From positions 1 to 64,000 of the forward strand of contig NZ_JAGKSQ010000004.1 of the NCBI RefSeq assembly GCF_017939705.1: a stretch of 64,000 nucleotides of DNA, written 5' to 3'. Every line of letters starts with the position of its first letter. The first letter of the stretch is position 1. This stretch comes from Halalkalibacter suaedae. Its GTDB lineage: Bacteria > Bacillota > Bacilli > Bacillales > Bacillaceae_D. Both the position numbers and the translations under genes were made by a program. The notes under the pieces were generated by a model that did no database searches, had not been told where the DNA came from, and saw nothing but the letters and a program-made list of their open reading frames with translations. Below are positions 3,695-34,351 of this stretch, one piece after another.

Positions 3695-6466
3695 ATGAAT
3701 TTAGTTGCTTCTCATTCATATAAAAGACTAGAGAAATCGGCTCAACATATATTTAAATTATTAAGCAAAAACATGCATGTGAACACGTTTTGTATAACTC
3801 AGGTAGCTGACGGAGTACAAAGTAATGTTATTTACGTGTTCAACAGAAATCAAGTGCTATTTGAATCTGGCATCTCTCTTCCACTAGGAGATGCTTATTG
3901 ACGTTTACTTATGGAAAGTGGTCGGGAACCACTTAAGATAGAAGACACTGCACAACATCCTATCGCAAGTAATCTTCCTCCAACAGAAGAGTTTGGAATT
4001 AAGTGTTTTTTAGGGGCTCCGATTATTTTAGGGGATGGTACACTATTTGGAAATATCTGTGCAGTAGGAACCGAAGAGTATACTTTTTCAGAAGATAATA
4101 TTGAAATTATTAAAAGCATGGCTGATTTTTTTGCATATGTGATCGAGCTTGAGAATTCAGTATTTCAAGATTCATTGACAGGATTAAATAACCGCCGCTT
4201 TGTTGATCAGTTTTTATCAACGATCACTTTTCAAAGAGGTGCAGTTCTCTTTTTAGATTTGGATAACTTTAAAAGTATAAATGACAGCTACGGTCACGAT
4301 ATTGGGGATGGGGTACTAATAGAAGTGAGTCAACGATTAAAAAAGATCGTGCGGAAAAATGATCATCTAGTCCGACTTGCTGGCGATGAATTCTTAGTTA
4401 TTCTACCTGATTTAGATCAAGAAGAATCGAGTCAGGTTGCAGAAAGAATGTTAGATGCTCTTTCAGAGACTGTGACACTAAAAGGTTATTCGTTCTCAGT
4501 GACTGCAAGTATAGGTAGTAGCTTCTTTCCTGAAGATGGAAAAACGCTAGAAGTATTGATGAAAAAGGCTGATATTTCGATGTATGCAGCCAAAAGGCAA
4601 GGGGACAACGTATATAAGACCTACTCAGAAGATAGGGATATTGAAAGTACTTCCTACTCAAAAGCTACTGAGGATTCCTCTATGGGTAGATCAGCATCGT
4701 TAATTAATGGTCAGAAGAAAATCCTGGAAATGGTATTAAATGAGTTTCCTCTCCAGGATATTTTACATTATTTAGTTAGCTGGATAGAAAAGCAAACTGA
4801 TTCACATATTTGCTCTATTTCCCTATTTGATGAGATGTTACAATCGCTCATTTTGACTGCTGCCCCTAACTTACCAATTGAGTTTAGGGATGAAATAAAA
4901 GTACTTCCTATTGGTACGAATATCGGTTCATGCGGAGCGGCTGCAGCTGAAAAGCGTCTCGTTATTACTGAGAATATTTCTTTAGACCCAAAATGGACAG
5001 ACTATAAGGAATCCGCATTACAATCAGGACTGCATTCTTGTTGGTCGATGCCAATACTCTCCTCAAAGAATAAATTAATAGGAACCTTTGCTATTTATGG
5101 TCTAAGTCCCAAAACACCGAATGAAGCAGATATTTATTTTCTTCAGAGTGTTAGTTATCTCATTTGTTTAGCAATTGAGCGAAAAGAGGCTGTAGAATCA
5201 TTAGATCAACTATCTAATTGTGATTTGCTTACTGGTGTTGGTAACCGAACGTTTTTTTATCAACAGCTTAATCAGAGCCTTAAGACCTTGAACGATTCAA
5301 CTAAATTGGCTTTACTCTTTGTTGATATAGATCGATTTAAAAAAATGAATAGTTCAATGGGTCTTTACTTCGGTGATCAAGTTTTAAAGGTGACAGTTGA
5401 GCGAATGAATCATGTGATTGATCAGACTCGTCATAAATTATTTCGGATTGATGGGGATGAATTTGTCATTATTTTGGATTTGAATCCGGGAGAAAATCCA
5501 TCTGAAATAGCAAAAGATATCTTAAACGTCTTTAAGGAGCCTTTCCATTATCAAAATGAAGAGTTTACGATTCCGATAAGGGTCGGTGTGAGTATTCACC
5601 AAGAAGGTGAAGAAATAGAACAGCTAATAAACAAGGGATTAAAAGCACTCGTTTATGCAAAGAAATCCGACAATCTTTATATTGCAGGAAAGGTAGCTTC
5701 AGATACCTCACAGGATCATAACCGTTTTATACTCGAAAATGATTTGAGAAAAGTGATCGAACGTAATGAACTGTCTTTGGTCTATCAACCACAGTATGAT
5801 ATGAATCGTAATGAAATGATAGGGATGGAAGCTTTAATTCGTTGGAAACATGCAGAAAAGGGCTTTATATCTCCAGTCGACTTTATTCCGCTTGCTGAAG
5901 AGAATGGCTCCATTATCGCAATTGGAAATTGGGTATTACTAACAGTCTGTAATCAAATAAATGAATGGAAGGCTAAAGGCTTTCTCGTACCTACAGTTGC
6001 AGTCAACATCTCTCCAGTGCAGCTTCAAAATGAGAATTTCGTCCAATCTTTATTAGATATATTTACCTTAACTGGCTGTGAACCAACATCAATCTCTCTT
6101 GAGATCACAGAAAGCATGACATTAGACATTGAAAAGACAATGAGTCTCTTTAAGCAATTAAATGACATAAACATCAATATAAGTGTCGATGATTTTGGTA
6201 CGGGCTATAGCTCATTGTATTATCTGGATCAATTGCCGATTGACCAAGTTAAAATTGATAAATCCTTTATTCAAAATAAGAGTAAGCAAGCGATTGTAAA
6301 AAGCATTGTTGAAATGGCTAATAATCTGCAAATAGAGGTCATTGCTGAAGGGGTAGAAACAAGTGAACAGGTACAATTTCTTCAGGAAATAAACTGCACC
6401 TATGCACAGGGTTACTACTTTAGCAAACCTATCTCCGATGTAGAAAAGTTATTACGATTGAAATAA
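3695..6466 (+). pseudogene. GAF-GGDEF-GAF-GGDEF-EAL protein interrupted by an in-frame TGA
   Basis: Read through, this is a 923-codon c-di-GMP enzyme. Codon 69 (3899-3901) is TGA; coding continues in the same frame (CGT TTA CTT ATG) and completes the first GAF domain. In related GAF domains the position after the Tyr is normally Cys, so TGT or TGC to TGA is the simplest history. Domains: GAF (about 1-150), GGDEF with LAGDEF near residue 229 and an RKND inhibition site, GAF (about 345-500), a degenerate GGDEF with DGDEF near 586, and an EAL domain (about 680-920) with MEALIRW, NISP, ITES, DDFGTGYSS, KIDKSFI and EGVE, so phosphodiesterase residues are complete. The first start (3695) has GGAGG upstream; ATG 3911 after the stop has no ribosome binding site. 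All downstream domains are undamaged, so the lesion is recent, a sequencing error, or read through. Confidence 0.75.
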
Positions 6467-6552: not shown

Positions 6553-8415
6553 TTACTGACCAGTTTCTGTTGAGAATGGTGATGCTGGTAGCCCTTCTTT
6601 ATTATAAAGATTTGCTTCTACGGGATTATCCTCCCATGCATACCGAACATGGCAAGGTTCGTTTATTTGCTCGTGGTAAACAACGACCGTAGGGCCATGA
6701 ATACTTGCTGTTGCGGGGACAAATCGACCATCCTTCCCACTTATCATAAAGCATTGTAATGCTCCATTTCGGGCGGTCAGTCCGCCTCCCACATGATCAA
6801 AATGCAAGTGAATCGAACTTCCGATTCGCTCCATTTTTTGATACAATGGGCCACTATATATAATGTCATCATTATAAGCAAGCTTCCTAGCAGATAAGGC
6901 TAGACGTTGTCCCAGTGTTTTCTTATTTTGTGGGTGTAAGTCATTAGACTCACCGATGTCAATCGTCACAGCCATTGCTGTATTGGGAAGAGTAAGCGAC
7001 TTCCGCTGTTCTTCACGTAAGACGGCCCAGTTATTATTTTCGGTGTCTTTTGCCCCGGTATCGAAATTCGCAAGTTGAGTATAGATAAAGGGAAACTCAC
7101 TGTTATCCCAATTAGCACGCCAGTCCTTAACGACGTTTCTGAACAGAGTCCTATACCCTTCAGGAGTGTGGGTGTTTGATTCCCCTTGATACCAAAGGAC
7201 ACCTTTTACTTGATAGTGATTTAGTGGTGCAATCATTCCATTATATAAACCAGCCGGTTCGTATTGAAAAAAAGTAGCTGGTTCAAGTTGCTTCATCATT
7301 GCTCCGATTCGGTAGTGCCAGGTTCCTGATAAGTCTAGTTCCTGATCATTTGCAAATAGCTTATATGGCATTTCTTTAATGAAGCTACCAGTATTCTGGG
7401 TTGTCATGACTCTGACTGCAATTGAATTTCTCCCAGGTTTCAGTAATCCACTTGGAATTGAATACCTTCTTGGCGGATACATATAGCCTGTGCTGCCAAT
7501 AAGGATTCCATTAATATACGTTTCGTCAGCGTCAATAATTGTCCCCATTGCTAACTTGGCCTCGCAATCAGTCATTAAAGCAGGTAGCTCAAATTCTTTT
7601 CGAAACCAGACTGACCCGCGTATTGCTTCAAGCTCGCTTCCATGCCATGAGTTTGGTAGTTGAAATTCACTCCAAGCTGATGAATGAGCCAATTCCTTGT
7701 TAAACCAAGCTTCTTTTAGTCCAAGATCCTTTTCATTGAGAACATTAAACCAATTTGTCTGTCGTTCTTCGTCAGCTGATTTCGTTGTGGCAATATAAGA
7801 ATCATCCTTACACTGAATTAGACGGTTTTCGTACCCACCTAGTTCTAGTAAGGTTTTCTCACTGATCCAAGCTTCTGCAGGTGTTCCACCTACAGCTGTG
7901 TGAATTAATCCGATGGGAACGCCATATAATTCATAAAGTTCTTTAGCAAAAAAATAACCAACTGCACTAAATTCTAAGACAGATTCTTGATTAGCAGCAA
8001 CCCACTCACCTCTTGTTAAGATATGCTGTGGTTCATGAAAATCATAGTTCTGTGGAACATGAAACTTCCTAATAAAAGGTGAATTAACCGCTTTCATTTC
8101 TTCAGAAAATAAATCAAGCGTTCGGCTAATTGGCAGCTCCATATTTGATTGCCCACCAAGCACCCATACATCGCCAATTAATATATCTTGTAATAATATC
8201 TCTTCGTCTGCGCTGATTCTCATTTGGTGGGGACCACCTGCTTCTAAATTTTCCAACGTAATCTTCCATACTCCGTTACTATCTGAGATCGTTCGATAGG
8301 ATTTTCCGAGAAAAGACATTTCCACCTGTTGAAATGGAGTCGTGTTACCTGATAGTGTTACTTTTTTATTACGCTGGAGGACCATACCGTCACTTATTAT
8401 GCTTGATAGAATCAT
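6553..8415 (-). CDS. Sialate O-acetylesterase-like SGNH hydrolase
   Basis: A 620-aa protein of the sialate O-acetylesterase family, which removes acetyl groups from sialic acids or plant-polysaccharide sugars. The SGNH block I is the GGQSNMELP motif near residue 93, a second block is GVLWYQGESN and the late DLHPQNK segment carries the likely catalytic Asp/His. A beta-sandwich insert (WFRKEFELP... ADETYING) resembles the sugar-binding jelly roll found in family members with an inserted domain. No signal peptide is seen when ATG 8415 is used (AGAGGTG at 7 bases), so it is probably cytoplasmic. It stands alone, without neighbouring sugar transporter or glycoside hydrolase genes. Divergent from the methyltransferase at 8580. 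The substrate is inferred from the family only. Confidence 0.85.
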   Translation of the reverse strand: MILSSIISDGMVLQRNKKVTLSGNTTPFQQVEMSFLGKSYRTISDSNGVWKITLENLEAGGPHQMRISADEEILLQDILIGDVWVLGGQSNMELPISRTLDLFSEEMKAVNSPFIRKFHVPQNYDFHEPQHILTRGEWVAANQESVLEFSAVGYFFAKELYELYGVPIGLIHTAVGGTPAEAWISEKTLLELGGYENRLIQCKDDSYIATTKSADEERQTNWFNVLNEKDLGLKEAWFNKELAHSSAWSEFQLPNSWHGSELEAIRGSVWFRKEFELPALMTDCEAKLAMGTIIDADETYINGILIGSTGYMYPPRRYSIPSGLLKPGRNSIAVRVMTTQNTGSFIKEMPYKLFANDQELDLSGTWHYRIGAMMKQLEPATFFQYEPAGLYNGMIAPLNHYQVKGVLWYQGESNTHTPEGYRTLFRNVVKDWRANWDNSEFPFIYTQLANFDTGAKDTENNNWAVLREEQRKSLTLPNTAMAVTIDIGESNDLHPQNKKTLGQRLALSARKLAYNDDIIYSGPLYQKMERIGSSIHLHFDHVGGGLTARNGALQCFMISGKDGRFVPATASIHGPTVVVYHEQINEPCHVRYAWEDNPVEANLYNKEGLPASPFSTETGQ

Positions 8416-8579
8416 AGTTTCACCTCTTATAAGAAGAATTATCATCTTTAAAATGATCATACCTATTAAAGGGTTCAAAAGCAAAATCTTTCTTTGGATT
8501 AGTTCGGCACATCTAGCCTGTATGGATATTTATGGTAAACTGTAGTGGGTTTGATTAGTTAAGAGAAGAGGGATGAAAG

Positions 8580-9356
8580 ATGGCAATTGATTTTCATAGT
8601 CAAGAAAACCGTAATACGTATACAACTAGAAGTGCGGACCATTCATGGACGGACATCATTAAAGGACTTGTACCTATCGAGAATCTATCTAAAGCTCTGG
8701 ATATTGGCTGTGGTGGAGGAATTTATGCCAAGGCTCTATCAGACATGGGAGTGGACACAGTCACTGGTATTGATTTTTCCGAGGCAATCCTTGAAGGTGC
8801 AAGGCAGAACTGTAAAGAATACAAGAATATTTCATTCCAACTTGGTCATGCTTTTGAAACTAATTTAGATAGTGATAAATATGATTTACTGCTTGAAAGA
8901 GCATTGATTCACCATATTAAGGATTTGTCCTCATGTTTCCGAGAGGCATTTAGAGTGTTAGAACAAGGCGGAACGTATATTGTTCAAGATCGAACTCCAG
9001 AGGATTGTTTATTAGAGGGAGATGAAAATCATGTAAGGGGATATTTCTTTGAATTGTTCCCAAGGTTAATTGAAAAAGAAACTGAACGGCGTCATAAGAG
9101 CACTGTTGTTATCGAATTACTGAAGAAAGCTGGATTTAATAACATTCAAGAAGTTAGGTTATGGGAAACACGACAAGTTTGGAAACATAAAGAGCAGTTA
9201 CTAACAGATCTAAGTGGACGAACAGGAAGAAGCATTTTATATGAATTAGATGATAATGAGATGAGGTTACTTATTACTCATATTGATCAGTCACTAACCA
9301 AGGATACGAATATAGTTGAAAAGGATCGATGGACTATATGGAAGGCGACCAAATAG
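8580..9356 (+). CDS. Class I SAM-dependent methyltransferase
   Basis: A 258-aa Rossmann-fold methyltransferase. Motif I (ALDIGCGGGIYAKAL, near residues 38-52) binds S-adenosylmethionine, motif II ends in TGIDFSE, and LLLERALIHHIKD and VLEQGGTYIVQDR match motifs IV and V of the type-11/25 methyltransferase families. The substrate cannot be told from the sequence. ATG 8580 is preceded by AGAGGG at 7 bases. The gene is monocistronic: a divergent gene lies upstream and a terminator follows. Confidence 0.85.
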   Translation: MAIDFHSQENRNTYTTRSADHSWTDIIKGLVPIENLSKALDIGCGGGIYAKALSDMGVDTVTGIDFSEAILEGARQNCKEYKNISFQLGHAFETNLDSDKYDLLLERALIHHIKDLSSCFREAFRVLEQGGTYIVQDRTPEDCLLEGDENHVRGYFFELFPRLIEKETERRHKSTVVIELLKKAGFNNIQEVRLWETRQVWKHKEQLLTDLSGRTGRSILYELDDNEMRLLITHIDQSLTKDTNIVEKDRWTIWKATK

Positions 9357-9362
9357 TCTAAA

Positions 9363-9390
9363 GGTCTGCTGACAAACAGTAGACTTTTTT
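9363..9390 (+). terminator. Terminator of the methyltransferase gene
   Basis: GTCTGCTG pairs with CAGTAGAC (one G-T pair) around a short loop, followed by six T, seven bases after the stop codon. Confidence 0.7.
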
Positions 9391-9452
9391 AATCATAGTA
9401 AAAGAAAACACCACGAAATTATTAATGTTCATAAAAAAGAAGATCTGTGCTA

Positions 9453-9480
9453 TTGACTTTTTGGATAAATACGGTATAAT
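9453..9480 (+). promoter_or_regulatory. SigA-type promoter of the sbtA leader
   Basis: TTGACT and TATAAT with 16 bases between them form a near-consensus vegetative promoter. The start of transcription would be near 9487, giving an untranslated leader of about 420 bases before sbtA. Confidence 0.7.
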
Positions 9481-9609
9481 ATTTATAAATTAATAACCGA
9501 GAGATGCTTATTCAAACTCGAATCGATTAGGTCGCTTTAGCCAATTTTTAATAATAAATTATTGATTGTTGGAAAAAGAATCCTATTTGAAGTTCAGAGA
9601 AGAATAAAA

Positions 9610-9671
9610 TAAATCGGTATATTTCTTGACTAAGTGACTAGTCTAGGGGTATACCGATTTTTTGTTTTTTG
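9610..9671 (+). terminator. First terminator in the sbtA leader
   Basis: AAATCGGTATA pairs with TATACCGATTT; the inner part (CTTGACT with AGTC) can extend the helix. A run of T broken by a single G follows. It would end a transcript of about 180 nt from the promoter at 9453. Confidence 0.75.
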
Positions 9672-9815
9672 GGAGAGGATGCTTATTGAAAAGAGTAAGA
9701 AGGATGTTTTCTGAATTAGTGTGTATAAAAGGGTATGATTTGTGCTAGCTTACTAGCTAAATAACCTGTTAAATGAAAGGGAGATCTTTAAAAGACTCTA
9801 GGGTCAGTTAAAGGT

Positions 9816-9877
9816 AAACCGACAAATTTGTTTCAAATGACGAAATCATTTGAAGCTTGAATTTGTCGGTTTTTTTA
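9816..9877 (+). terminator. Second terminator in the sbtA leader
   Basis: A very stable two-part hairpin: AAACCGACAAATT with AATTTGTCGGTTT (13 bp), then TTCAAATGA with TCATTTGAA (9 bp) around a CGAAA loop, followed by T6. It ends 30 bases before the sbtA start codon, the position expected of an attenuator. Confidence 0.85.
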
Positions 9878-9907
9878 TTGGGTAATTAATCTTAAGGAGG
9901 AGTATTA

Positions 9908-10915
9908 ATGAGCGAAATTATTTTACAGAATTTACTATCACCTGTTGTCTTATTTTTTATATTAGGTATTATTGCGGCTATATTTAAATCGGATTTGAAA
10001 TTTCCAAGCGGTCTAAGTGAGGCACTAAGTATCTATTTATTAATTGCAATTGGAATCAAAGGAGGCATCGAGCTTTCACATTATTCGATTGAATCTGTAA
10101 TAGCTCCAATTGCGGGTGCGTTATTCATAGGAATTATTATCCCGATCATTACGCTATTAATCTTAAAATTGATCAAAATGGATTTTAAAAATTCTATAGG
10201 TTTAGCTGCCACATACGGTTCAATCAGTATTGTTACATACGGAGCGGCAATCTCGTTTCTTGATAAAAGCGGGATAAGCTATGAAGGGTTTATGAATGCA
10301 ATCGTTGTGCTTATGGAAAGTCCAGCAATTTTAGTTTCATTGCTACTATTAAAGATCGTTGAAAATAAGGATAATCCATCATCTCTTCCTACACAAAGTA
10401 TGGGACTAGTTCATAGTTCTGGGAGTTTAATTAATAAAGAAGTCATAAGAGAGAGTCTTTTTGGGAAAAGTATTTTGCTTTTAGTCGGGAGTTTAGTTAT
10501 AGGACTCATTTTAGGAGAACGTGCTGTTCCAATGGTTAAACCTTTATTCATGGATTTATACAATAGTGTCTTAATTCTCTTTTTATTAAATATGGGGCTA
10601 ATTGCCGGACAGCGTCTGCCAGAGGTTAAAAAACACGGATTGAAACTATTATTATTTGGATTATTGACACCACTTCTTTTTGGAAGTTTAGGAGTACTTG
10701 TTGGTAGTGTAGTTGGTTTGTCTTTAGGTGGAACGACCTTAATGGGTGTATTAGCAGGGAGTGCCTCATATATCGCTGCTCCTGCAGCATTAAAAACGTC
10801 TGTACCAGAAGCAAACCCATCGATTTATTTAGGACTATCTTTAGGAGTAACCTTTCCTTTTAATCTGATCATTGGAATACCAGTTTACTATGAAATAGCG
10901 AAATGGATACAATAG
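9908..10915 (+). CDS. sbtA: SbtA-type sodium-dependent bicarbonate transporter
   Basis: A 335-aa membrane protein of the SbtA family (formerly DUF897). In cyanobacteria SbtA imports bicarbonate with Na+ across the plasma membrane. The protein has about ten hydrophobic helices in two inverted halves, split by a hydrophilic linker around residues 155-185. GLAATYGSISIVTYGAA in the first half and GVLAGSASYIAAPAALK in the second are the conserved inner repeats of the family. ATG 9908 is preceded by AAGGAGG. The next gene starts 11 bases after the stop codon, so the two form an operon. Instead of the usual PII-like SbtB partner the operon carries a beta-carbonic-anhydrase-like protein. Expression is probably governed by the leader RNA in front of it. 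Confidence 0.85.
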   Translation: MSEIILQNLLSPVVLFFILGIIAAIFKSDLKFPSGLSEALSIYLLIAIGIKGGIELSHYSIESVIAPIAGALFIGIIIPIITLLILKLIKMDFKNSIGLAATYGSISIVTYGAAISFLDKSGISYEGFMNAIVVLMESPAILVSLLLLKIVENKDNPSSLPTQSMGLVHSSGSLINKEVIRESLFGKSILLLVGSLVIGLILGERAVPMVKPLFMDLYNSVLILFLLNMGLIAGQRLPEVKKHGLKLLLFGLLTPLLFGSLGVLVGSVVGLSLGGTTLMGVLAGSASYIAAPAALKTSVPEANPSIYLGLSLGVTFPFNLIIGIPVYYEIAKWIQ

Positions 10916-10926
10916 GAGGAAGAGAC

Positions 10927-11412
10927 ATGGAAACGATAGATAAGACTAAGAATACAAAGTCCTTAACTATAACGAGTCTTAATGAAGAGGTTCTTTCTTT
11001 CCTGCCAGTCATTACAAATAAGAAGACGGACGAACTACTAGTTTTGAACTGTTTTGGAGAAATGAATTCAGATCAAGAGAGCTGTTTAATTAGAGATATT
11101 ATTTTAGCCGTATATAGCGAACGGGTAGAAGAGGTATATATCATTGTTGAAGAAGATTATAAACCATATAGTATTACTGAGGACATACTACTTAGCAAAC
11201 ATAGTGTGTCAAAGACTGCTCTCAAAACCATCCGGCCTAATCAAATAGACGAGAAAAGCGTAACCGATTGGTTAAATGGTACAAGGTCTGTGACTGAAAC
11301 AATAAGAAACAATCTAGAGATGATCAGGAATCATCCATTACTACCAAATTCAGTTTCAGTAAACGGTTTTATTGTCAATATAGAAACAAGTCAGTTTAGC
11401 GTTGTAGACTAA
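10927..11412 (+). CDS. Degenerate beta-carbonic-anhydrase-like protein
   Basis: A 161-aa soluble protein co-transcribed with sbtA (AGGAGG overlaps the end of sbtA; ATG 10927). Its ends resemble short Bacillus beta-carbonic anhydrases such as YtiB: an ELLVLNC strand, an IILAVYSERVEEVYII segment, and the tail IRNHPLLPNSVSVNGF followed by a short IETSQF strand. The catalytic parts are missing. The C-x-D-x-R motif after the first strand reads NCFGEMN, about 27 residues of the active-site loop are absent, and the H-x-x-C zinc motif (GHHDCG in YtiB as I recall it) reads VEEDYK. It should therefore not bind zinc or hydrate CO2. I infer a regulatory or structural partner of SbtA. The homology is from memory of the family and needs a profile search. 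Confidence 0.65.
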   Translation: METIDKTKNTKSLTITSLNEEVLSFLPVITNKKTDELLVLNCFGEMNSDQESCLIRDIILAVYSERVEEVYIIVEEDYKPYSITEDILLSKHSVSKTALKTIRPNQIDEKSVTDWLNGTRSVTETIRNNLEMIRNHPLLPNSVSVNGFIVNIETSQFSVVD

Positions 11413-11493
11413 TCATCTATGCTAGTAAATTGTATAAATCCATAATTCAAAAAATAGTTAAAATAAAGTTAAAGAGTTCTAAAACAATTAGAC

Positions 11494-11540
11494 AACAACC
11501 AAGATACGCAGAAGTTAGAGCGAATCTTGGTTGTTTTTTT
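11494..11540 (+). terminator. Terminator of the sbtA operon
   Basis: AACAACCAAGAT pairs with ATCTTGGTTGTT and a run of T follows. It lies about 80 bases after the carbonic-anhydrase-like gene. Confidence 0.85.
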
Positions 11541-11626
11541 ACTTACTTTTATTTGGGATTTTATGTTAAATTAATAGTGTGAAAAGAGGATTAGAAGTTG
11601 AACTTATACATAAGGAGAGGTACTGT

Positions 11627-12058
11627 ATGAATCGAATTAATTTAATTACTTTAGGTGTGCATGATATGAAAGTCTCGTTGAAGTTCTATAGAGATGGACT
11701 GGGTTTTACAACATCTGTTAGTGAAGAAAACCCAGGTGTCGTCTTCTTTAGTAATGGTGGCACTAAGTTAGCTCTATATCCTCTAGATGAGTTAGCAAAG
11801 GATATTAATCAAGAGGAACCTCCAACTCGGAATGGTTTTTCGGGCATAACCTTGGCATATAACGCTAAATCAGCTGAAGAAGTAGATCTAATGATCAAAA
11901 GAGCTAAAATAGCTGGAGGGAAAATCGTCAAAATGCCCCAACGGGTTTTTTGGGGAGGGTATAGTGGATATTTTACCGACCCTGATGGCTACTATTGGGA
12001 AGTAGCTTATGGAGAAGACTGGAAATTTGATGAGCATGATATGTTAGTTGTTGGATAA
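11627..12058 (+). CDS. VOC family (glyoxalase-fold) protein
   Basis: A 143-aa protein of the vicinal oxygen chelate superfamily. It has the two beta-alpha-beta-beta-beta repeats: LITLGVHDMKVSLKFYRDGL at the start and GYFTDPDGYYWEVAYGEDW at the end, where the Glu is the usual last metal ligand. Members include glyoxalase I, dioxygenases and antibiotic-binding proteins, so the reaction cannot be assigned. ATG 11627 follows AAGGAGAGG; an in-frame start 16 codons upstream lacks a ribosome binding site. A second VOC gene lies at 12340. Confidence 0.85.
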   Translation: MNRINLITLGVHDMKVSLKFYRDGLGFTTSVSEENPGVVFFSNGGTKLALYPLDELAKDINQEEPPTRNGFSGITLAYNAKSAEEVDLMIKRAKIAGGKIVKMPQRVFWGGYSGYFTDPDGYYWEVAYGEDWKFDEHDMLVVG

Positions 12059-12135
12059 ATTTTTATATTGAAATAAGAGTTGAACGTGGGAATAGCTGTC
12101 TTAGATATGACAGAAAAGTATAGGGAGGCAATAGT

Positions 12136-12288
12136 ATGATGAGGGTGATGTTTATCCTTGCTGCTTTATGTATTCCTTTTTTTGCTTATATTGATAAAGG
12201 AGCTACTGGGATTTTACTAGGGTTATTCTTTATGATTCTTGGTGCTTTTTTTAGTAAACCGAGATTTGGTAGGGACCGCAAGAATTGA
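12136..12288 (+). CDS. Small membrane protein, 50 aa
   Basis: GGGAGG seven bases upstream of ATG 12136 opens a 50-codon frame of two hydrophobic helices (residues about 4-18 and 23-39) separated by IDKGATG and ending in a basic tail (KPRFGRDRKN). I do not recognise the family. It lies between two VOC genes. Coding potential is supported by the ribosome binding site and the helix-turn-helix membrane pattern only. Confidence 0.55.
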   Translation: MMRVMFILAALCIPFFAYIDKGATGILLGLFFMILGAFFSKPRFGRDRKN

Positions 12289-12339
12289 ATTGAGAGTTGC
12301 AGCCGACAGAAGTAGTACTAATTAGAAGGGGTTATGTAA

Positions 12340-12756
12340 ATGAAAGAAAAATTAGTTAGAGTAGGAACAACCTATATACCTGTCACAAACATAGAGCAGT
12401 CTTCTGAGTGGTATACGAGTAATGTAGGAGCAGTATTAACCTATAAGGATCAAGACAAAGCAATCCTTAATCTAGCAAACCAAAGTATGTTCCTCGTGAA
12501 ATCAAAAGAAAACCAACGAGCAAATTTCATTGATAGTTATGGTGAAGAGCGATTTTCTTTAACATTTGAAGTTGATGGGTTAGATGCGTTAAAGGCAATA
12601 CATCAAGAATTTACTGATAAAGAAATAAGAGTTGGAGAAATTGAGGATAGAGGACATGCTGGCCGGAATTTCATTTTCTACGATATCGATGGAAATAAAT
12701 TCGATGTTTGGAGTGAATTGAGTCCAGATTTCAAAGGTAATTCAAAATCTTATTAG
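12340..12756 (+). CDS. VOC family (glyoxalase-fold) protein
   Basis: A 138-aa single-domain vicinal oxygen chelate protein. It opens with GTTYIPVTNIEQSSEWY, has FSLTFEVDGLDAL in the middle and ends with NFIFYDIDGNKFDVWSE, the typical last strand with an acidic metal ligand position. The substrate is unknown. AAGGGG precedes the ATG at 12340. Its sequence is clearly different from the VOC gene at 11627, so the pair is not a recent duplication. A terminator follows directly. Confidence 0.85.
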   Translation: MKEKLVRVGTTYIPVTNIEQSSEWYTSNVGAVLTYKDQDKAILNLANQSMFLVKSKENQRANFIDSYGEERFSLTFEVDGLDALKAIHQEFTDKEIRVGEIEDRGHAGRNFIFYDIDGNKFDVWSELSPDFKGNSKSY

Positions 12757-12768
12757 AAAAAAAGTAGC

Positions 12769-12806
12769 AAGAGCAGCCCCGAATAAGTGATGGAGCTGCT
12801 CTTTTA
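12769..12806 (+). terminator. Terminator of the second VOC gene
   Basis: AGAGCAGCCCC pairs with GGAGCTGCTCT and is followed by TTTATTTT. Confidence 0.75.
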
Positions 12807-12875
12807 TTTTAATTTAACATTTAATAGATTTATCTTTTTCGATTTTTGTTAGATAATTTAGAAATCCTTAAATCC

Positions 12876-12910
12876 TTCTTTAGACTTTCTTTAGATTTGC
12901 TTTCTATACT
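12876..12910 (+). promoter_or_regulatory. Tandem TTCTTTAGA repeats and promoter of the vanZ operon
   Basis: TTCTTTAGA occurs at 12876-12884 and again at 12887-12895, an 11-base period, with a weaker third unit (GCTTTCTATA) one turn further. A TATACT -10 box lies at 12905-12910. Direct repeats one helical turn apart next to the -35 region are typical of OmpR-family response regulators, so I infer that the regulator at 13526 binds here and controls its own operon. Confidence 0.45.
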
Positions 12911-12945
12911 GAGAAAGCAACAAAGAGAAATTGAGGAGGATGGTT

Positions 12946-13503
12946 ATGGGAGATTCAGTTATGTTTACGATTCATTCATGGTATTTACTTGTTCCAATCT
13001 TTTTTATAGGGTTATTGTGGTTGGTGATATGGGCAAAACGAAGGAAAGAGAGAGTCAATCCAGCTCAGTTTGTTGTCTTACTTTCATTTGGGATATACTT
13101 GCTTTGCGTCTTTCATTTAGTATTTTTTCCGATTGATGTGAATATAGGGACATATGCAAATCAGACTCCGTGGTATAAGAGTATTAATTTTTTTCCTGTA
13201 TTAACGATTGATCTAACAACTTTTGTGTTGAATATTATAATGTTAGTCCCGTTTGGAATGTACCTTCCGTTTCTGAAAAAAACCGTTGATTCTGTTAAAG
13301 ATGCGGCAAAGCTGGGTTTCATGTTGAGTTTATCGTTTGAGATGATACAACTGCTTATACGGATAACATTGGGTAGTGGACGTAGCACAGATATTAATGA
13401 CTTACTAGCAAATACAGCAGGTGCGGCTATCGGTTATCTTATCATCAAGAAATTGTTTCAGGTCTCACCTATTAAGAATTTGTTTGCAAAGTTTCAACTC
13501 TGA
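12946..13503 (+). CDS. VanZ family membrane protein
   Basis: A 185-aa integral membrane protein with about five helices. The family hallmarks are the FHLVFFPI motif near residue 49, the NFFPVLTIDLTTFVLNIIMLVPFG region and the charged SFEMIQLLIRITLGSGRSTDINDLLANTAGAAIGY stretch (split here only by my reading of helices). VanZ itself gives low-level teicoplanin resistance in enterococci; most chromosomal homologues have unknown roles at the envelope. The ATG at 12946 is 7 bases after GAGGAGG. It is the first gene of an operon with a VanR/VanS-like pair, which suggests a cell-envelope stress role. Confidence 0.85.
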   Translation: MGDSVMFTIHSWYLLVPIFFIGLLWLVIWAKRRKERVNPAQFVVLLSFGIYLLCVFHLVFFPIDVNIGTYANQTPWYKSINFFPVLTIDLTTFVLNIIMLVPFGMYLPFLKKTVDSVKDAAKLGFMLSLSFEMIQLLIRITLGSGRSTDINDLLANTAGAAIGYLIIKKLFQVSPIKNLFAKFQL

Positions 13504-13525
13504 CCTATGTAAGGAGGCAAAGCTG

Positions 13526-14209
13526 ATGACGAGAATAGTCATTGTAGATGATGATCAGCATATAGCTGAGTTAATCGAAGTGTATCTCAAGAATGAAGGA
13601 TATGAAATTGAAAAAGCAGGAGACGGACTAGAAGCACTAAAACTTATAGAGCGTGCTCCTGCAGACCTCATCATACTAGATATTATGATGCCAAGGATGG
13701 ATGGGCTAGAGCTTTGCAAACATATCCGCAAAACAAATCAAGTTCCAATCCTAATGATCAGTGCAAAGGTTGAAGATATGGACAAGATTGTCGGCTTAAT
13801 GACAGGAGCAGATGATTATATGAGTAAACCGTTTAATCCTTTAGAGTTAACAGCAAGGGTTAAAGCCCTCCTCCGACGAGCGAATTACAAATCTTTAGTG
13901 ACTGAAGAGGATGTGATACAAATTGGTTCCTTAGAAGTTGATAAACAAAGTCATACGGTGATGGCAGCTGGAGTTGTAATTAAGCTCACGGCAATTGAAT
14001 TCAATATTCTATTTCTACTAGCCAAAAATCGAGGACGTGTCTTTGCATCTGAAGAGATATTTGAAAAAATCTGGAATGAAGATGGTACTGGATCAAACAA
14101 AACCGTAATGGTCCATATTAGCAATCTTCGCGATAAAATCGAAGCGGCTTTGCCCGGGGAAGTGATTATCCAAACGGTTTGGGGAGTTGGGTATAAAATT
14201 GAAAAATAA
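13526..14209 (+). CDS. OmpR-family response regulator
   Basis: A 227-aa regulator with an N-terminal receiver domain (acidic DDD near residue 9, phospho-acceptor Asp in LIILDIMMPRMDG near 53, Lys in MSKPFNP near 102) and a C-terminal winged-helix DNA-binding domain (NKTVMVHISNLRDKIE recognition region). ATG 13526 lies behind AAGGAGG; a longer in-frame reading into vanZ is not supported. It is most like VanR-type regulators of Bacillaceae. The histidine kinase overlaps its end, and the direct repeats at 12876 are its likely target. Confidence 0.9.
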   Translation: MTRIVIVDDDQHIAELIEVYLKNEGYEIEKAGDGLEALKLIERAPADLIILDIMMPRMDGLELCKHIRKTNQVPILMISAKVEDMDKIVGLMTGADDYMSKPFNPLELTARVKALLRRANYKSLVTEEDVIQIGSLEVDKQSHTVMAAGVVIKLTAIEFNILFLLAKNRGRVFASEEIFEKIWNEDGTGSNKTVMVHISNLRDKIEAALPGEVIIQTVWGVGYKIEK

Positions 14210-15308
14210 TCTGATTAAAGTCATTCGTTTTGTACCTAAGTGGAAGATTTTAGGGTATATTCTTCTCTCATTTTTCCTCGCGATGGGTACAGTAGTTATT
14301 CTATTTCCTGTTGTGTGGTATTTAGAGGACGAATCAAGATTTTTTGAGAGTTTATTTATTGTCCTATCTTATTTCCATTTGTTTGTCGTTTTCATATTTT
14401 ATGGAATGGTCATGTGCTTATATTTACTACTCTTTTATCTATATGAGCGAAAACAGTATCTGGTGTTTCATTTGAAAAAAATAACGGAAAATGTTCAGCA
14501 ATTAGCTGGAGGGAAACAATTCTCGGGAACTATTTCAGAGACAGAAGAATTCCAATCACTTGCTAGGGGTATTGAGCAAATAATGATAAGAGCCGAACAG
14601 GCAATCGAAGATGTGAAAAAAGCTGAACAGACGAAGAGTGAACTTATCACGAATGTAGCTCATGATCTTAGGTCACCACTCACCTCGATAATTGGCTATT
14701 TAGATCTTATTAATGAAGATCGTTATAGGGATGAAGTGGAGCTTCGTTATTACATTCAGGTGATACACGATAAGACCGCGAGCTTGCATGGGTTAATTAA
14801 TGATATTTTTGATTATACATATGTCCAAAATCAGCAAGTCATTCTCAAACAAGACCAAATTGATATTGAAGAAATGATTAATCAATTAGTCGTTCAAACT
14901 CGAATTCAAGTGGAAGAAGCAAATATGGAATTACGACAATTGTCATTAGCTGAGGAAGCAATCATCCATGGCGATGGAAGTAAGCTTGCAAGAGTATTTG
15001 AAAATCTCTTTCAAAACGCGATTCGTTATGGTGAGGAAGGTACCTTAATTGACGTAAGCATTAGTGACACCGAGAAGGCAGTTAAGGTTGCCATTACAAA
15101 CTATGGTCAAGTCATCCCAAGTTTTGATATACCTCATATTTTTGAACGATTTTATCGAGTAGAGAAATCACGGTCTCGCTTTACTGGGGGTTCTGGATTA
15201 GGGTTAGCCATTGCAAAAGGGATCATTGACCTCCACAAAGGAACCATTGAAGTGGAGAGTGCTAACGGGAGAACGACTTTTACAGTGGTGCTTTTAAAAG
15301 AACGATGA
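14199..15308 (+). CDS. Two-component sensor histidine kinase, VanS-like
   Basis: A 369-aa membrane kinase with two N-terminal transmembrane helices (about residues 15-37 and 55-80) and only a short extracytoplasmic loop, so it may sense within the membrane. A HAMP-like linker leads to the dimerisation domain with the phospho-acceptor His in NVAHDLRSPLTS. The ATPase domain has an N box (ENLFQNAIRYG), an F box (IFERFYRVEKS) and a G2 box (GGSGLGLAIAKG); the G1 Asp position reads TNYGQVIP as in VanS-type kinases. TTG 14199 is preferred (GGGGAG 12 bases upstream, overlap of 11 bases with the regulator gene); TTG 14187 abuts that site. Confidence 0.88.
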   Translation: MKNNLIKVIRFVPKWKILGYILLSFFLAMGTVVILFPVVWYLEDESRFFESLFIVLSYFHLFVVFIFYGMVMCLYLLLFYLYERKQYLVFHLKKITENVQQLAGGKQFSGTISETEEFQSLARGIEQIMIRAEQAIEDVKKAEQTKSELITNVAHDLRSPLTSIIGYLDLINEDRYRDEVELRYYIQVIHDKTASLHGLINDIFDYTYVQNQQVILKQDQIDIEEMINQLVVQTRIQVEEANMELRQLSLAEEAIIHGDGSKLARVFENLFQNAIRYGEEGTLIDVSISDTEKAVKVAITNYGQVIPSFDIPHIFERFYRVEKSRSRFTGGSGLGLAIAKGIIDLHKGTIEVESANGRTTFTVVLLKER

Positions 15309-22085: not shown

Positions 22086-22210
22086 GTGTAAGGAGTAATA
22101 TATAATTAGAGAGAGAATGAGCAATCAGGTAAATAAGTAATCTATCGTTCTTGTCATAATAGAATATGATAATTTCTAAAGGTTACCCTAATTGTTTTAT
22201 GGGGTGGGAT

Positions 22211-24511
22211 ATGAGAACAATTGGTAGCAAGAATGTACTTAAGATCTTAAAAAAGAATTTCAAAATTATTAGTATCTTTTTCAGTTTAACTTTCATGAAA
22301 GAGATTCTTGAATTAAGTGGTTTGAATGTTAGCAACACAATTTATGAGCCAACTATAAGGCTCTTATCTTTCTTGATCATTGTTTATATCTTCTATCATT
22401 ATCTAAAACGATTAGCTGAAATTAAAGAAAAGTTGAGATTTAATGAGTCATTCGGCAATAGTGTGCTTGAAAATATGGAAGATGGCATTACAATCTATGA
22501 TAAACAGGGACAAGTCCTTTATTCAAATGAAGCTGCTCGGACATTTGGCATTTCAGAAATAAAGGATCCGCTCGAGCAATGTAGTGAGGTGTATGGATTA
22601 TACTACCCTAATTGGACATCGCATCTATTAAAGGAAGATCTACCAATTTCAAAAATTCTACATGGAGAATCTGTCTATAATCAGGAAGTTTGGGTGATGC
22701 CAAAGGGGAAGCCATTACGGGTTTTATTATTTAATGGAAAACCAGTACAACTTTCTTCACATGACACTGTCCTATACTTAATGATGGCCCAGGATGCGAC
22801 ACAGCGTAGATGGACTGAACAGAGGTTAGCTGTTAGTGAGCAAAGATTTAAATCCCTATTCAAGCATAATCCAGATATGGTGTTTTGGATTGATGTAAAT
22901 GGACGCTTCTTAGGTGCGAACGCTGTTGCAGAAACAATAATCGGGTACGAAGAGAGAGAACTTCTTCAAAAATCGTATAGAGATGTAATGGCTGATGATG
23001 AGGTTGACCAAGTAATCAAGCAATTTAAACAAACAATTAAAGGAGAACCACAGACTTTCGAATCACGAATAATGAATAGTGAGAAGGATGTTCTGGAAGT
23101 GAATGTAACGGTTATGCCAATTACAGTTGATCAAAACATTGTTGGTGTTTATGCAGTTGTAAAGGATATCACCGAGCGAAAAAAGACTGATGAAATGGTC
23201 CAATACTTAGCCTATCACGATACATTGACTGGTCTAGCTAATCGGCGATTATTTTATAATGAATTGAGTGAAGCCTTTTCGGCAGCGAAACAACATGATC
23301 ATATAGTAGGTCTAATGTTTCTTGATTTAGACCGTTTTAAATTTATTAATGATACATTGGGTCATGACATTGGTGATCTATTACTAGTAGCTGTAGCAAG
23401 AAGATTGGAAGGTTGTATAAGCAGTTTGGATACGATTTCTCGACTTGGTGGCGATGAATTTACGTTTATTCTACCAAATAGTACGAGAGAGAAGACAGCC
23501 AAAGTAGCAAAGAAAATTTCAGAGGTGTTATCACAAGTCTTTATCATTGAAGGACAAGAGGTATACATAACAGCTAGCATTGGGATTAGCATCTATCCAT
23601 CAGACGGGGGAAATATAGAAACGTTAATTAAGCATGCTGATACGGCGATGTACGCTGCTAAGGACAGTGGAAAAGACAATTTCAGATTCTATACTCCTAG
23701 CATGAATGAAGTTTTCTCTCGTCATATGCTGCTAGAAAAGGGGCTTCGTGAGGCATTAAAGAACAACGAATTGGAGCTTTATTATCAACCGAAAATACAT
23801 ATTATCACAGGTCAAGTCGTCGGTTTCGAGGCGTTAATTCGTTGGAATCATCCATATTTGGGACTCGTTTCACCGGCAGAATTCATACCTTTAGCAGAAG
23901 AGACAGGATTAATCATTCCAATAGGTAAGTGGGTACTGAGATCGGCATGTTTACAAGCGAGGATTTGGCAGCAACAAGGGTATTCATTTGTCAAAATGGC
24001 TGTAAATTTATCGGTGGTCCAATTTCAAGATGAGGGATTGATTAGTGAGATTATTCGTGTTTTAGCAGAGACGGGTCTTGCTCATGATAGTTTGGAACTA
24101 GAAATTACTGAAGGGATTTCAATCGACGATAATCAATCGTTCCTTGCAAAGTTAATAGAGTTAAAGGCATTAGGTATTCGGATTTCAATAGATGATTTCG
24201 GAAAAGGATATAGTTCGCTCAGTTATTTACAGAAACTACCTATTGATACATTAAAGATTGATAAATCATTTATTCAAGGAATGACAAGCGAAAAAGGAAT
24301 AGATTTAGTTGAAGCGATCTTAACAATAGGACATCAACTTAATCTCACTATCGTTGCAGAGGGTGTAGAGGAACCCTCTCAGTTAGAGATGTTGAGAAGG
24401 TTAGGTTGTGATGAATTACAGGGATACTTATTTAGTAAGCCAATCCCAGCAGAAGCGGTCGAAGAGAAGCTAATTGAGCTTGGTCAAATAAAGTATCTAG
24501 AGCACCATTAA
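22211..24511 (+). CDS. PAS-PAS-GGDEF-EAL c-di-GMP enzyme
   Basis: A 766-aa membrane protein with two N-terminal transmembrane helices (about residues 15-30 and 40-62), two PAS domains (about 75-200 and 205-325; the second ends in the PAC motif DITERKK), a GGDEF domain with RLGGDEF near residue 412, and an EAL domain with FEALIRW near 540, NLSVVQF, ITEGIS, DDFGKGYSSL, KIDKSFI and EGVE. Both catalytic halves look complete, so it could make or degrade c-di-GMP. The inhibition site reads SSLD instead of RxxD. ATG 22211 follows GGGGTGG closely; ATG 22166 further up has no ribosome binding site. The Fur box upstream suggests expression under iron limitation. Confidence 0.88.
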   Translation: MRTIGSKNVLKILKKNFKIISIFFSLTFMKEILELSGLNVSNTIYEPTIRLLSFLIIVYIFYHYLKRLAEIKEKLRFNESFGNSVLENMEDGITIYDKQGQVLYSNEAARTFGISEIKDPLEQCSEVYGLYYPNWTSHLLKEDLPISKILHGESVYNQEVWVMPKGKPLRVLLFNGKPVQLSSHDTVLYLMMAQDATQRRWTEQRLAVSEQRFKSLFKHNPDMVFWIDVNGRFLGANAVAETIIGYEERELLQKSYRDVMADDEVDQVIKQFKQTIKGEPQTFESRIMNSEKDVLEVNVTVMPITVDQNIVGVYAVVKDITERKKTDEMVQYLAYHDTLTGLANRRLFYNELSEAFSAAKQHDHIVGLMFLDLDRFKFINDTLGHDIGDLLLVAVARRLEGCISSLDTISRLGGDEFTFILPNSTREKTAKVAKKISEVLSQVFIIEGQEVYITASIGISIYPSDGGNIETLIKHADTAMYAAKDSGKDNFRFYTPSMNEVFSRHMLLEKGLREALKNNELELYYQPKIHIITGQVVGFEALIRWNHPYLGLVSPAEFIPLAEETGLIIPIGKWVLRSACLQARIWQQQGYSFVKMAVNLSVVQFQDEGLISEIIRVLAETGLAHDSLELEITEGISIDDNQSFLAKLIELKALGIRISIDDFGKGYSSLSYLQKLPIDTLKIDKSFIQGMTSEKGIDLVEAILTIGHQLNLTIVAEGVEEPSQLEMLRRLGCDELQGYLFSKPIPAEAVEEKLIELGQIKYLEHH

Positions 24512-33891: not shown

Positions 33892-33946
33892 TTGACAATA
33901 ATAGGTTACAGTTGTAAACTCAACATGAGTGGTTACAACTGTAACC
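33892..33946 (+). promoter_or_regulatory. blaI promoter with two BlaI-type operators
   Basis: TTGACA (33892-33897) and TAAACT (33915-33920) are 17 bases apart. Two TACA-N2-TGTA dyads are present: GGTTACAGTTGTAAAC (33904-33919) over the spacer and -10, and the perfect GGTTACAACTGTAACC (33931-33946) over the transcription start. This is the operator type of BlaI/MecI repressors, so the operon is autorepressed until the sensor protease acts. Confidence 0.85.
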
Positions 33947-33964
33947 TTGAATAGGAGGGTGTAT

Positions 33965-34351
33965 GTGACGAAGTTGATTTCTAAAATAACTGACTCAGAA
34001 GTTGAGGTATTACGTGTGTTATGGGCAGTAGGAGAGGCTCTTCCGATGGCAGAGATTCGCAAAACACTTTTGCAAACAAGTAAATGGGAAACGTCTACAA
34101 TCAAAACACTCCTTCGAAGACTGTGTGAAAAAGGTGTTGTCAAGGCGAAGAAAAAAGAGGTCTACTACTATCAACCGCTTGTGACGGAAAAAGAATACAA
34201 TGATTATACGACACAAAGCTTGATCGATCGTCTGTACTCTGGAAGTGCGAAAAGCCTTGTTGCTTCATTGCTTGGAAGTAAAAAACTAAATCAAGACGAT
34301 ATAGAAGAATTACGTGATCTCTTCAAGGTAGAAGGTGATAGCAATGAGTGA
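33965..34351 (+). CDS. BlaI/MecI/CopY family repressor
   Basis: A 128-aa winged-helix repressor. The DNA-binding part has SKITDSEVEVLRVLWAVGEA, TSKWETSTIKTLLRRLCEKG (recognition helix) and the wing VVKAKKKEVYYYQPLV; the C-terminal helices (SLIDRLYSGSAKSLVASLL) dimerise. In the family, signal-induced cleavage between these parts releases the operator. GTG 33965 follows AGGAGGGTG. The metalloprotease sensor gene overlaps its end by 8 bases. No beta-lactamase or penicillin-binding-protein target gene lies next to it. Confidence 0.92.
   Translation: MTKLISKITDSEVEVLRVLWAVGEALPMAEIRKTLLQTSKWETSTIKTLLRRLCEKGVVKAKKKEVYYYQPLVTEKEYNDYTTQSLIDRLYSGSAKSLVASLLGSKKLNQDDIEELRDLFKVEGDSNE

Follow-up and report, generated by a model that had tools for sequence, protein, structure and literature searches.

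A zinc-less carbonic-anhydrase-like protein beside SbtA and a candidate leader RNA shared by inorganic-carbon uptake loci of Bacilli

In cyanobacteria, the bicarbonate transporter SbtA and its partner SbtB are encoded by neighboring genes. SbtB belongs to the PII-like proteins (PMC10991534). In Bacilli, a “putative carbonic anhydrase (CA)” has been found directly downstream of the dissolved inorganic carbon (DIC) pump MpsAB, also known as DabAB, in three species (Fan et al. 2021, PMC8552792), and a further gene, mpsC, has been described as dispensable and, except in staphylococci, as lying apart from mpsAB (PMC6689103). Among the CA homologues of Bacillus subtilis, YbcF has been listed as one whose mutants show a very mild effect on calcite (PMC5515261), and it has been counted among the putative CA genes (PMC13414356). 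Here we describe an sbtA locus of Halalkalibacter suaedae, located in a stretch of 64,000 nucleotides (RefSeq assembly GCF_017939705.1, contig NZ_JAGKSQ010000004.1, positions 1 to 64,000, forward strand) that is referred to below as the window. As in cyanobacteria, a small soluble protein is encoded beside an SbtA-family bicarbonate transporter; unlike SbtB, this partner has a predicted beta-CA fold and belongs to a family, here named PCA, that also accompanies DabA. With the DabAB/MpsAB loci of Bacilli, in turn, the locus and its relatives share the PCA and MpsC families and a candidate regulatory leader RNA. L and G numbers denote loci and genomes in our collection.

Halalkalibacter is an alkaliphile genus. 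The window sbtA gene (positions 9908 to 10915, on the forward strand, as are the partner gene, ribosome-binding sites, leader hairpin, and terminators described below) encodes a 335-aa protein that matches the Sbt_1 family (PF05982) with 380 bits (E = 1.1e-113) over profile positions 1 to 307 of 308, and its closest match among PDB sequences is Slr1512/SbtA (E = 1.1e-30). The gene is assigned by family membership, and Na+-dependent bicarbonate transport is its putative function. The partner gene (10927 to 11412, 161 aa) begins 11 bases after the sbtA stop codon, in agreement with an earlier interpretation made from the letters of the window alone (the sequence-only reading). By eye, ribosome-binding sites are seen ahead of sbtA (AAGGAGG, 9894 to 9900) and of the partner gene (AGGAGG, 10914 to 10919, overlapping the sbtA stop codon), and the operon is probably closed by an intrinsic terminator at 11494 to 11541, where the inverted repeat ACAACCAAGAT/ATCTTGGTTGT is followed by a T-run.

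The partner protein is related to beta-CAs of the YtiB/Cab type (PF00484), with which the PCAs share the fold, the order of secondary-structure elements, and a C-terminal HPLxP motif. A single-sequence phmmer search with the window PCA finds PDB entry 6y04 (E = 3.3e-6), and a profile of the PCA family retrieves 6y04 with E = 1.5e-18 and 1g5c with E = 7.9e-12. In a Foldseek search of the PDB with the AlphaFold2 model of the window PCA (predicted local distance difference test [pLDDT] score, 79.4), the 50 matches listed are CAs, COS- or CS2-hydrolases, and Rv1284, which we take to be a beta-CA; the best of them is 1g5c (E = 2.8e-8, TMq 0.66). By sequence and model, then, the window PCA has a beta-CA fold. 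PF00484 itself gives no match to the window PCA even at E = 10 and recognizes a single one of 11 PCA members, the window protein included, with E = 0.0055.

When the window PCA is aligned with two other sequences and with the intact YtiB that its own genome encodes (L002), the C-x-D-x-R position falls at S17-L18-N19-E20-E21 and the H-x-x-C position at E75 to Y78, within IVEEDYK, so all three zinc ligands (Cys, His, Cys) are substituted, by S17, E75, and Y78, and the Asp/Arg dyad by N19 and E21. The sequence-only reading had recognized a CA-like protein devoid of its zinc site, and both that assignment and its placement of the lost H-x-x-C ligands in VEEDYK are borne out, the predicted structure being a beta-CA fold and not an unrelated one. 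It had erred in reading NCFGEMN as the former C-x-D-x-R motif, as this segment pairs with the adjacent “NAGA” strand of YtiB, and in taking the active-site loop for deleted: the loop is present, with a gap of 3 residues only, and what the protein lacks is the N-terminal arm of YtiB, some 27 residues long, which is likewise absent from the other PCAs aligned with YtiB. The PF00484 search that it had suggested for the 161-aa protein came back empty, as described above. The window protein also lacks the PYG motif kept by most of its relatives and lies on a long branch (0.89), among the more divergent members of the family.

Loss of the zinc site extends across the whole family. A hidden Markov model built from 11 PCAs found matches in 300 of the 397 genomes searched in the order, most of which, judged by score and length without inspection of each, look like YtiB-type enzymes. 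From these matches, 43 were retained (the 38 best new ones, along with 5 of lower score whose reading frames are short) and combined with 11 loci of earlier surveys, a choice that may miss PCAs scoring among the true enzymes. Over the resulting 54 loci plus the window, the first Cys is kept in one row of 55 (L110) and the His and second Cys in none, so that no PCA has more than the first of the three ligands; the Asp of the dyad is present in 10 rows and the Arg in 3. The ratio of nonsynonymous to synonymous substitution rates (dN/dS) was 0.06 to 0.53 in all 15 close PCA pairs tested; these pairs are relatives of the window PCA, which itself has no close relative for a direct selection test. 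Given family-wide ligand loss and purifying selection in relatives, we consider PCA a maintained non-zinc protein and reject the decay of a single copy, which the sequence-only reading had said would follow if homologues kept their ligands. We propose, judging CO2 hydration from the lost ligands, that PCA is non-catalytic. At another place, the window genome has a gene for an intact YtiB-type enzyme that retains all ligands (L002).

All 55 PCA genes lie in a same-strand cluster with a DIC transporter gene, sbtA in 33 loci and dabA in 22, mostly directly 3' of it and with a ribosome-binding site close behind; in some dabA loci, mpsC stands between the two. An mpsC gene is found within 5 kb of PCA in 52 of the 55 loci, the exceptions being the window, L101 (at a contig end), and L121, and it accompanies sbtA as well as dabA, in contrast to its reported lack of collocation with mpsAB outside staphylococci (PMC6689103). 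A second set of 35 named loci, collected by a PCA peptide pattern only and spanning Halalkalibacter, Domibacillus, Jeotgalibacillus, Mesobacillus, Bacillus methanolicus, Priestia, Cytobacillus, and others, has sbtA or dabA in 35 and mpsC in 34; many of its assemblies also occur in the first set, and the sets are therefore not independent. YbcF and YbcI of the ndhF-ybcC operon are presumably the PCA and MpsC of that operon. In one short contig (L161), both uptake systems are joined in the order dabA-PCA-mpsC-leader-sbtA start, and in Halalkalibacter wakoensis (L127/L159) sbtA is divided between two reading frames, by a sequencing error or because the transporter is broken, next to an mpsC, a leader, and a PCA gene that seem intact.

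Seen from the side of the transporter, the association is looser. Among 16 genomes of the family with an sbtA of the window type, mpsC is upstream in 15 (all except the window; calls by eye, one confirmed by Pfam) and PCA is present in 8; in one of them, L017, mpsC is separated from sbtA by a partial sbtA copy. A second sbtA type (seven loci, L018 to L024) has neither mpsC nor PCA beside it, and no leader RNA was found in the five of these loci that were searched. As judged from these neighborhoods, PCA is an optional companion of window-type sbtA. The sequence-only reading had suggested that the pseudo-CA may stand in for SbtB, perhaps by sensing bicarbonate or gating the carrier, and had recommended a survey of sbtA neighborhoods. 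Such a survey upholds a conserved zinc-less partner, supported by the fold and by 55 members, 33 of them beside sbtA, and lends no specific support to a replacement of SbtB: with 22 of the 55 PCAs in dabA clusters and only 8 of the 16 window-type sbtA loci carrying PCA, a partner dedicated to SbtA was rejected.

The PCA tree splits by transporter type, with support of 100/99 for the dabA group. YtiB joins between the dabA-linked and the sbtA-linked PCAs, in a tree with few outgroups and several long branches, so zinc may have been lost once or twice. The MpsC tree, obtained by a quick method from few columns, also clusters by transporter (3 changes versus 21.9 when shuffled), and since the two trees cluster alike, PCA following MpsC and PCA following the transporter are not told apart.

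Upstream of sbtA, the core hairpin of a candidate regulatory RNA lies at 9779 to 9823 (-13.0 kcal/mol), identified by a covariance model and by covariation, and it is followed by an intrinsic terminator at 9818 to 9876 (-26.3 kcal/mol), which ends in a run of 7 T and whose 5' arm overlaps the 3' end of the hairpin (ACCGAC). The leader was discovered as a conserved stretch between mpsC and sbtA. With covariance model R1, built from 37 copies that include this one, the window copy scores 64.5 bits (E = 4.2e-12), and nothing else in the genome matches at E ≤ 1. The 37 copies had been chosen by a regular expression fixing GGGAGA and CCG, so conservation at these letters is partly due to selection. 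In their alignment, 93.7% of the cells are paired, both sides have changed at 10 pairs, double-change cells number 71 versus 21.0 in shuffles, the covariation score was reached in 0 of 500 shuffles, and no slid register was comparable. Three regular-expression matches (L081+168, L087-5581, and L110+1954) were set aside by eye as false.

A wider set of 109 copies from 100 loci, collected with the covariance model and without regular-expression selection, has a common architecture: GG-K-A-G, an 8-bp stem, an AA/NG internal loop, an upper stem, and AAA-CC-G-R-C. The KAG/AAA and AA/NG loops are mostly near-invariant, and the bottom stem pair, fixed in the 37-copy set, is A-U, U-A, or C-G here. In 94 of the 109 copies, versus 0.85 expected from shuffles, the 3' end of the hairpin has an exact downstream complement (G-U allowed) followed by a T-run, and 8 of the 15 copies without such a terminator are the first copies of tandem pairs. 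Tandem copies, about 60 to 180 nt apart, are seen in L202, L204, L205, L207, L208, L210, L218, L220, and L235. The hallmark of a transcription attenuator, an alternative hairpin overlapping an intrinsic terminator, is found in these loci and in the window. A search of Rfam 15 with window positions 8000 to 14500 at E ≤ 1 returned three sub-threshold microRNA/small-RNA models only, and six loci with the motif gave no match; with nothing at the gathering score, a known Rfam family was ruled out, and by this evidence the leader looks like a new structured RNA that is apparently undescribed. A second terminator-like inverted repeat (9604 to 9667, by eye) lies between a methyltransferase-like gene and the leader; around this position, the usual site of mpsC, the window has no mpsC.

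The leader model matches 96 of the 397 genomes of the order, 36 of 338 in a class-wide draw that shares some genomes with the order set, and 5 of 358 in a phylum-wide draw, among whose matches L315 and L316 are false, lying inside a tsf-like coding sequence. The order matches outside L079 to L132 amount to 60 loci, with tandem copies counted once, and all of these were fetched. The gene behind the leader is sbtA in 22, dabB(A) in 25 (24 by dabA match, 1 by eye), a divergent Sbt_1 gene in 4 (3 adjacent and 1 at 4 kb, one of them tested by Pfam), isocitrate dehydrogenase (icd) in 4, DUF6671 in 3, PCA in 1, and no such gene in 1. The last is L245 in genome G232, set aside because no related gene lies downstream. 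The icd genes (L202, L216, L237, and L243) are open reading frames (ORFs) of about 480 aa, assigned through PF00180 plus PF18324 in L237 and by eye in the other three; isocitrate dehydrogenase produces CO2. DUF6671 proteins follow the leader in L229, L252, and L259 (two of the three tested by Pfam), and a DUF6671-like protein is seen by eye in the dabA-PCA-mpsC locus L038/L124; we propose, from these positions, that DUF6671 is a further member of the inorganic-carbon set. Of the 27 matching class-level genomes outside the order, 20 were represented by one locus each, some of them near-identical, and sbtA or dabA was present in all 20 and mpsC in 19. Outside the class, L314 (G899) has the order mpsC-motif-MFS-type transporter, the transporter type being assigned by eye. 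In L269 and L272, mpsC also adjoins an MFS transporter, the leader between the two being noted for L314 only; in all three loci the transporter is, by eye, presumably akin to the oxalate/formate family.

The gene most regularly associated with the leader is mpsC. Of the 96 genomes with the motif, 95 encode its product (PF10057), versus 289 of 397 in the order overall, a comparison of lists made by eye in which relatedness of the genomes inflates the co-occurrence. The one motif genome without MpsC is the already mentioned G232, whose leader match is weak (E = 0.0025) and has none of the target genes downstream. Of the 60 loci, 35 have mpsC directly upstream of the motif. In the window genome, the close mpsC is on another contig (L133, G000:C24), where it stands upstream of an HD-GYP-like ORF (by eye); L252 and L259, with the motif before DUF6671, likewise have mpsC elsewhere in the genome, and a trans-acting MpsC fits these cases. 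Mean column identity is 71% in MpsC versus 35% in PCA, and K5, R26, K32, R37, K66, R69, and R106 of MpsC are invariant. The MpsC model (pLDDT, 92.5) matched one unnamed protein among viral models in a Foldseek search (E = 5.7e-4). Distant MpsC paralogues (72 to 84 bits) are found by eye near kdpA/kdpB-like potassium-uptake genes in L274 to L279, which suggests, as far as neighborhoods can tell, that the MpsC family serves or regulates several ion transporters.

Transcription antitermination by BglG/LicT proteins, which act on RAT hairpins, offers the closest parallel: a regulator gene, a GG/CC-closed hairpin with internal loops, an overlapping terminator, and transporter genes are common to both systems. 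The RAT hairpin differs from the leader in sequence and length, and MpsC is not a member of the BglG/LicT family: the one MpsC scanned (L004) contains PF10057 only and no CAT RNA-binding domain, and RNA binding by MpsC is putative.

Our preferred reading, held tentatively and with rather less than even confidence, is that these genes form an inorganic-carbon module under leader-RNA attenuation, with MpsC holding the hairpin and PCA as a non-catalytic regulator. The sbtA-PCA pair of the window would then be a local version of a DIC uptake module that is widespread in Bacilli and in which the leader controls transcription into the transporter gene, sbtA here and dabB-dabA elsewhere. The leader may fold either as a GG/CC-closed hairpin with a 3x3 internal loop or as a terminator that needs the same CC. 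Because the two are mutually exclusive at the terminator base, holding the hairpin should remove the base next to the U-run and let the polymerase read on. The holder is likely MpsC, which is small, highly conserved, and rich in invariant Lys and Arg residues, acting as an RNA-binding antiterminator; in the window genome, where mpsC is on a different contig, this action would be in trans. PCA would report the supply of CO2 or bicarbonate, without catalysis, to the switch or to the transporter. Its position behind mpsC and the motif in L225 (with no transporter in the fetched stretch) and, ahead of the transporter, in L147 and L290, as well as between mpsC and the motif in L291 alone, would make it a natural DIC reporter. 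The sequences themselves show the PCA family with its ligand loss and purifying selection, the linkage, the RNA structure, the terminator overlap, and the target genes, whereas the direction of switching, the binding of the RNA by MpsC, and DIC sensing by PCA are inferred. The fuller statement, that MpsC is the RNA-binding antiterminator of the 45-nt leader at sbtA, dabBA, icd, and other genes and that PCA is the CO2/bicarbonate sensor setting its activity, appears to us rather unlikely.

Another possibility, itself on the unlikely side, is that PCA works in the manner of SbtB, binding SbtA or DabA from the cytosol and gating the carrier or coupling it to carbon status, with leader and MpsC as a separate layer of control. 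The gene order, with PCA mostly immediately downstream of sbtA or dabA, the division of the PCA tree by transporter type, as expected of co-evolving interfaces, and the failure of PF00543 to find a PII protein in the window genome (it matched 13 of 14 control genomes; its detection of SbtB is untested) would suit such a role, and PCA may act directly on SbtA and DabA. This would, however, require a single small fold to match two transporters that are not related to each other; PCA is also lacking in half of the family's related sbtA loci, and L225 has PCA and no transporter in the fetched stretch. As PCA also occurs with DabAB and is optional, while mpsC and the leader are more constant, a regulatory module is at least as likely as carrier gating. 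We also regard as unlikely a protein-free riboswitch sensing bicarbonate, Na+, or another ion or metabolite, with MpsC and PCA as accessory transport proteins. Compact, mostly near-invariant internal loops are in keeping with this idea, as are the tandem copies in several genomes, an arrangement that occurs in riboswitches, the targets sbtA, dabA, and icd, coherent with DIC as the signal, and the 16 of 60 motif loci with no mpsC nearby. Against it stands the near-perfect co-occurrence with MpsC, including an mpsC-motif pair before a different transporter outside the class. Moreover, a stabilized hairpin should switch the transporters on, so bicarbonate as ligand would act the wrong way round; with the hairpin as the ON state, a protein antiterminator active at scarce DIC fits better. 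Finally, the long branch of the window PCA and its lost PYG motif could be taken for signs of a decayed CA or of a weakly active enzyme without a classical zinc site, which we consider very improbable in view of ligand loss across the family, an intact reading frame in the window, dN/dS well below 1 in relatives, and the full-ligand enzyme of the same genome.

Several observations weigh against an attenuation module built on MpsC and PCA. The overlap of hairpin and terminator is confined to the stem base, the terminator is the more stable fold, and one of the five covariation measures, that for further pair types, did not rise above shuffles (74 of 500). The mpsC gene lies downstream of the motif in 9 of the 60 loci and is not in the stretch in 16, and 194 genomes of the order have PF10057 and no motif at E ≤ 0.01. 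Among 20 mpsC loci fetched from motif-less genomes, 9 are beside sbtA and 1 beside dabA; in 4 of these 9 mpsC-sbtA loci (L266 to L268 and L273) the leader is absent even at E ≤ 3, and the others give weak partial matches only. In L016 and L017, which have mpsC-sbtA, no leader was found. A Foldseek comparison of the MpsC model with the PDB yielded no significant fold (best E = 0.026, mostly ribosomal chains), and a weak match to Pelota among PDB sequences (E = 0.028) proves nothing. PCA is missing from many loci with motif, mpsC, and transporter and so is not essential to the switch, its split by transporter is also expected if PCAs touch the transporters, and the window itself has neither a local mpsC nor the PYG motif in its PCA. 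In one study, deletion of mpsC in Staphylococcus aureus caused no growth phenotype, and an Escherichia coli CA mutant was complemented by mpsAB in the absence of mpsC (PMC6689103). These results are no direct test of antitermination, since plasmid expression could hide the effect. The same work describes a weak terminator that separates mpsAB from mpsC, as well as reduced expression of mpsA at 5% CO2 (PMC6689103).

If the proposed module is real, it would represent an undescribed antitermination system for inorganic-carbon sensing in Bacilli, for which the literature examined names no CO2/bicarbonate sensor. Nor does that literature, which is partial and exclusive of most subscription papers, describe the leader RNA, the loss of zinc from a transporter-linked CA, or a regulatory role of MpsC. 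The sequence-only reading had known of no described system of this kind; a CA-like gene directly downstream of MpsAB is already in print as a “putative CA” (PMC8552792). Candidate roles would be gained for two widespread proteins that lack one, namely, MpsC, so far filed as part of a membrane-potential or transport complex, and the zinc-less relatives annotated as “putative CA.” The leader marks DIC-uptake operons in about one-quarter of the surveyed genomes of the order, a direct and testable handle, and predicts a regulon of sbtA, dabBA, icd, DUF6671, and PCA. Counts of CAs in Bacilli, e.g., in work on biomineralization, would include PCA, which is likely not an enzyme.

Elsewhere in the window, three proteins with GGDEF and EAL domains, which are involved in cyclic-di-GMP turnover, are encoded within 64 kb (3911 to 6466, 22166 to 24511, and 38220 to 41042). 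A BlaR1-type M56 peptidase with a DUF4825 domain (34335 to 36233) is overlapped by a 140-aa ORF (33929 to 34351), whose product could be its regulator.

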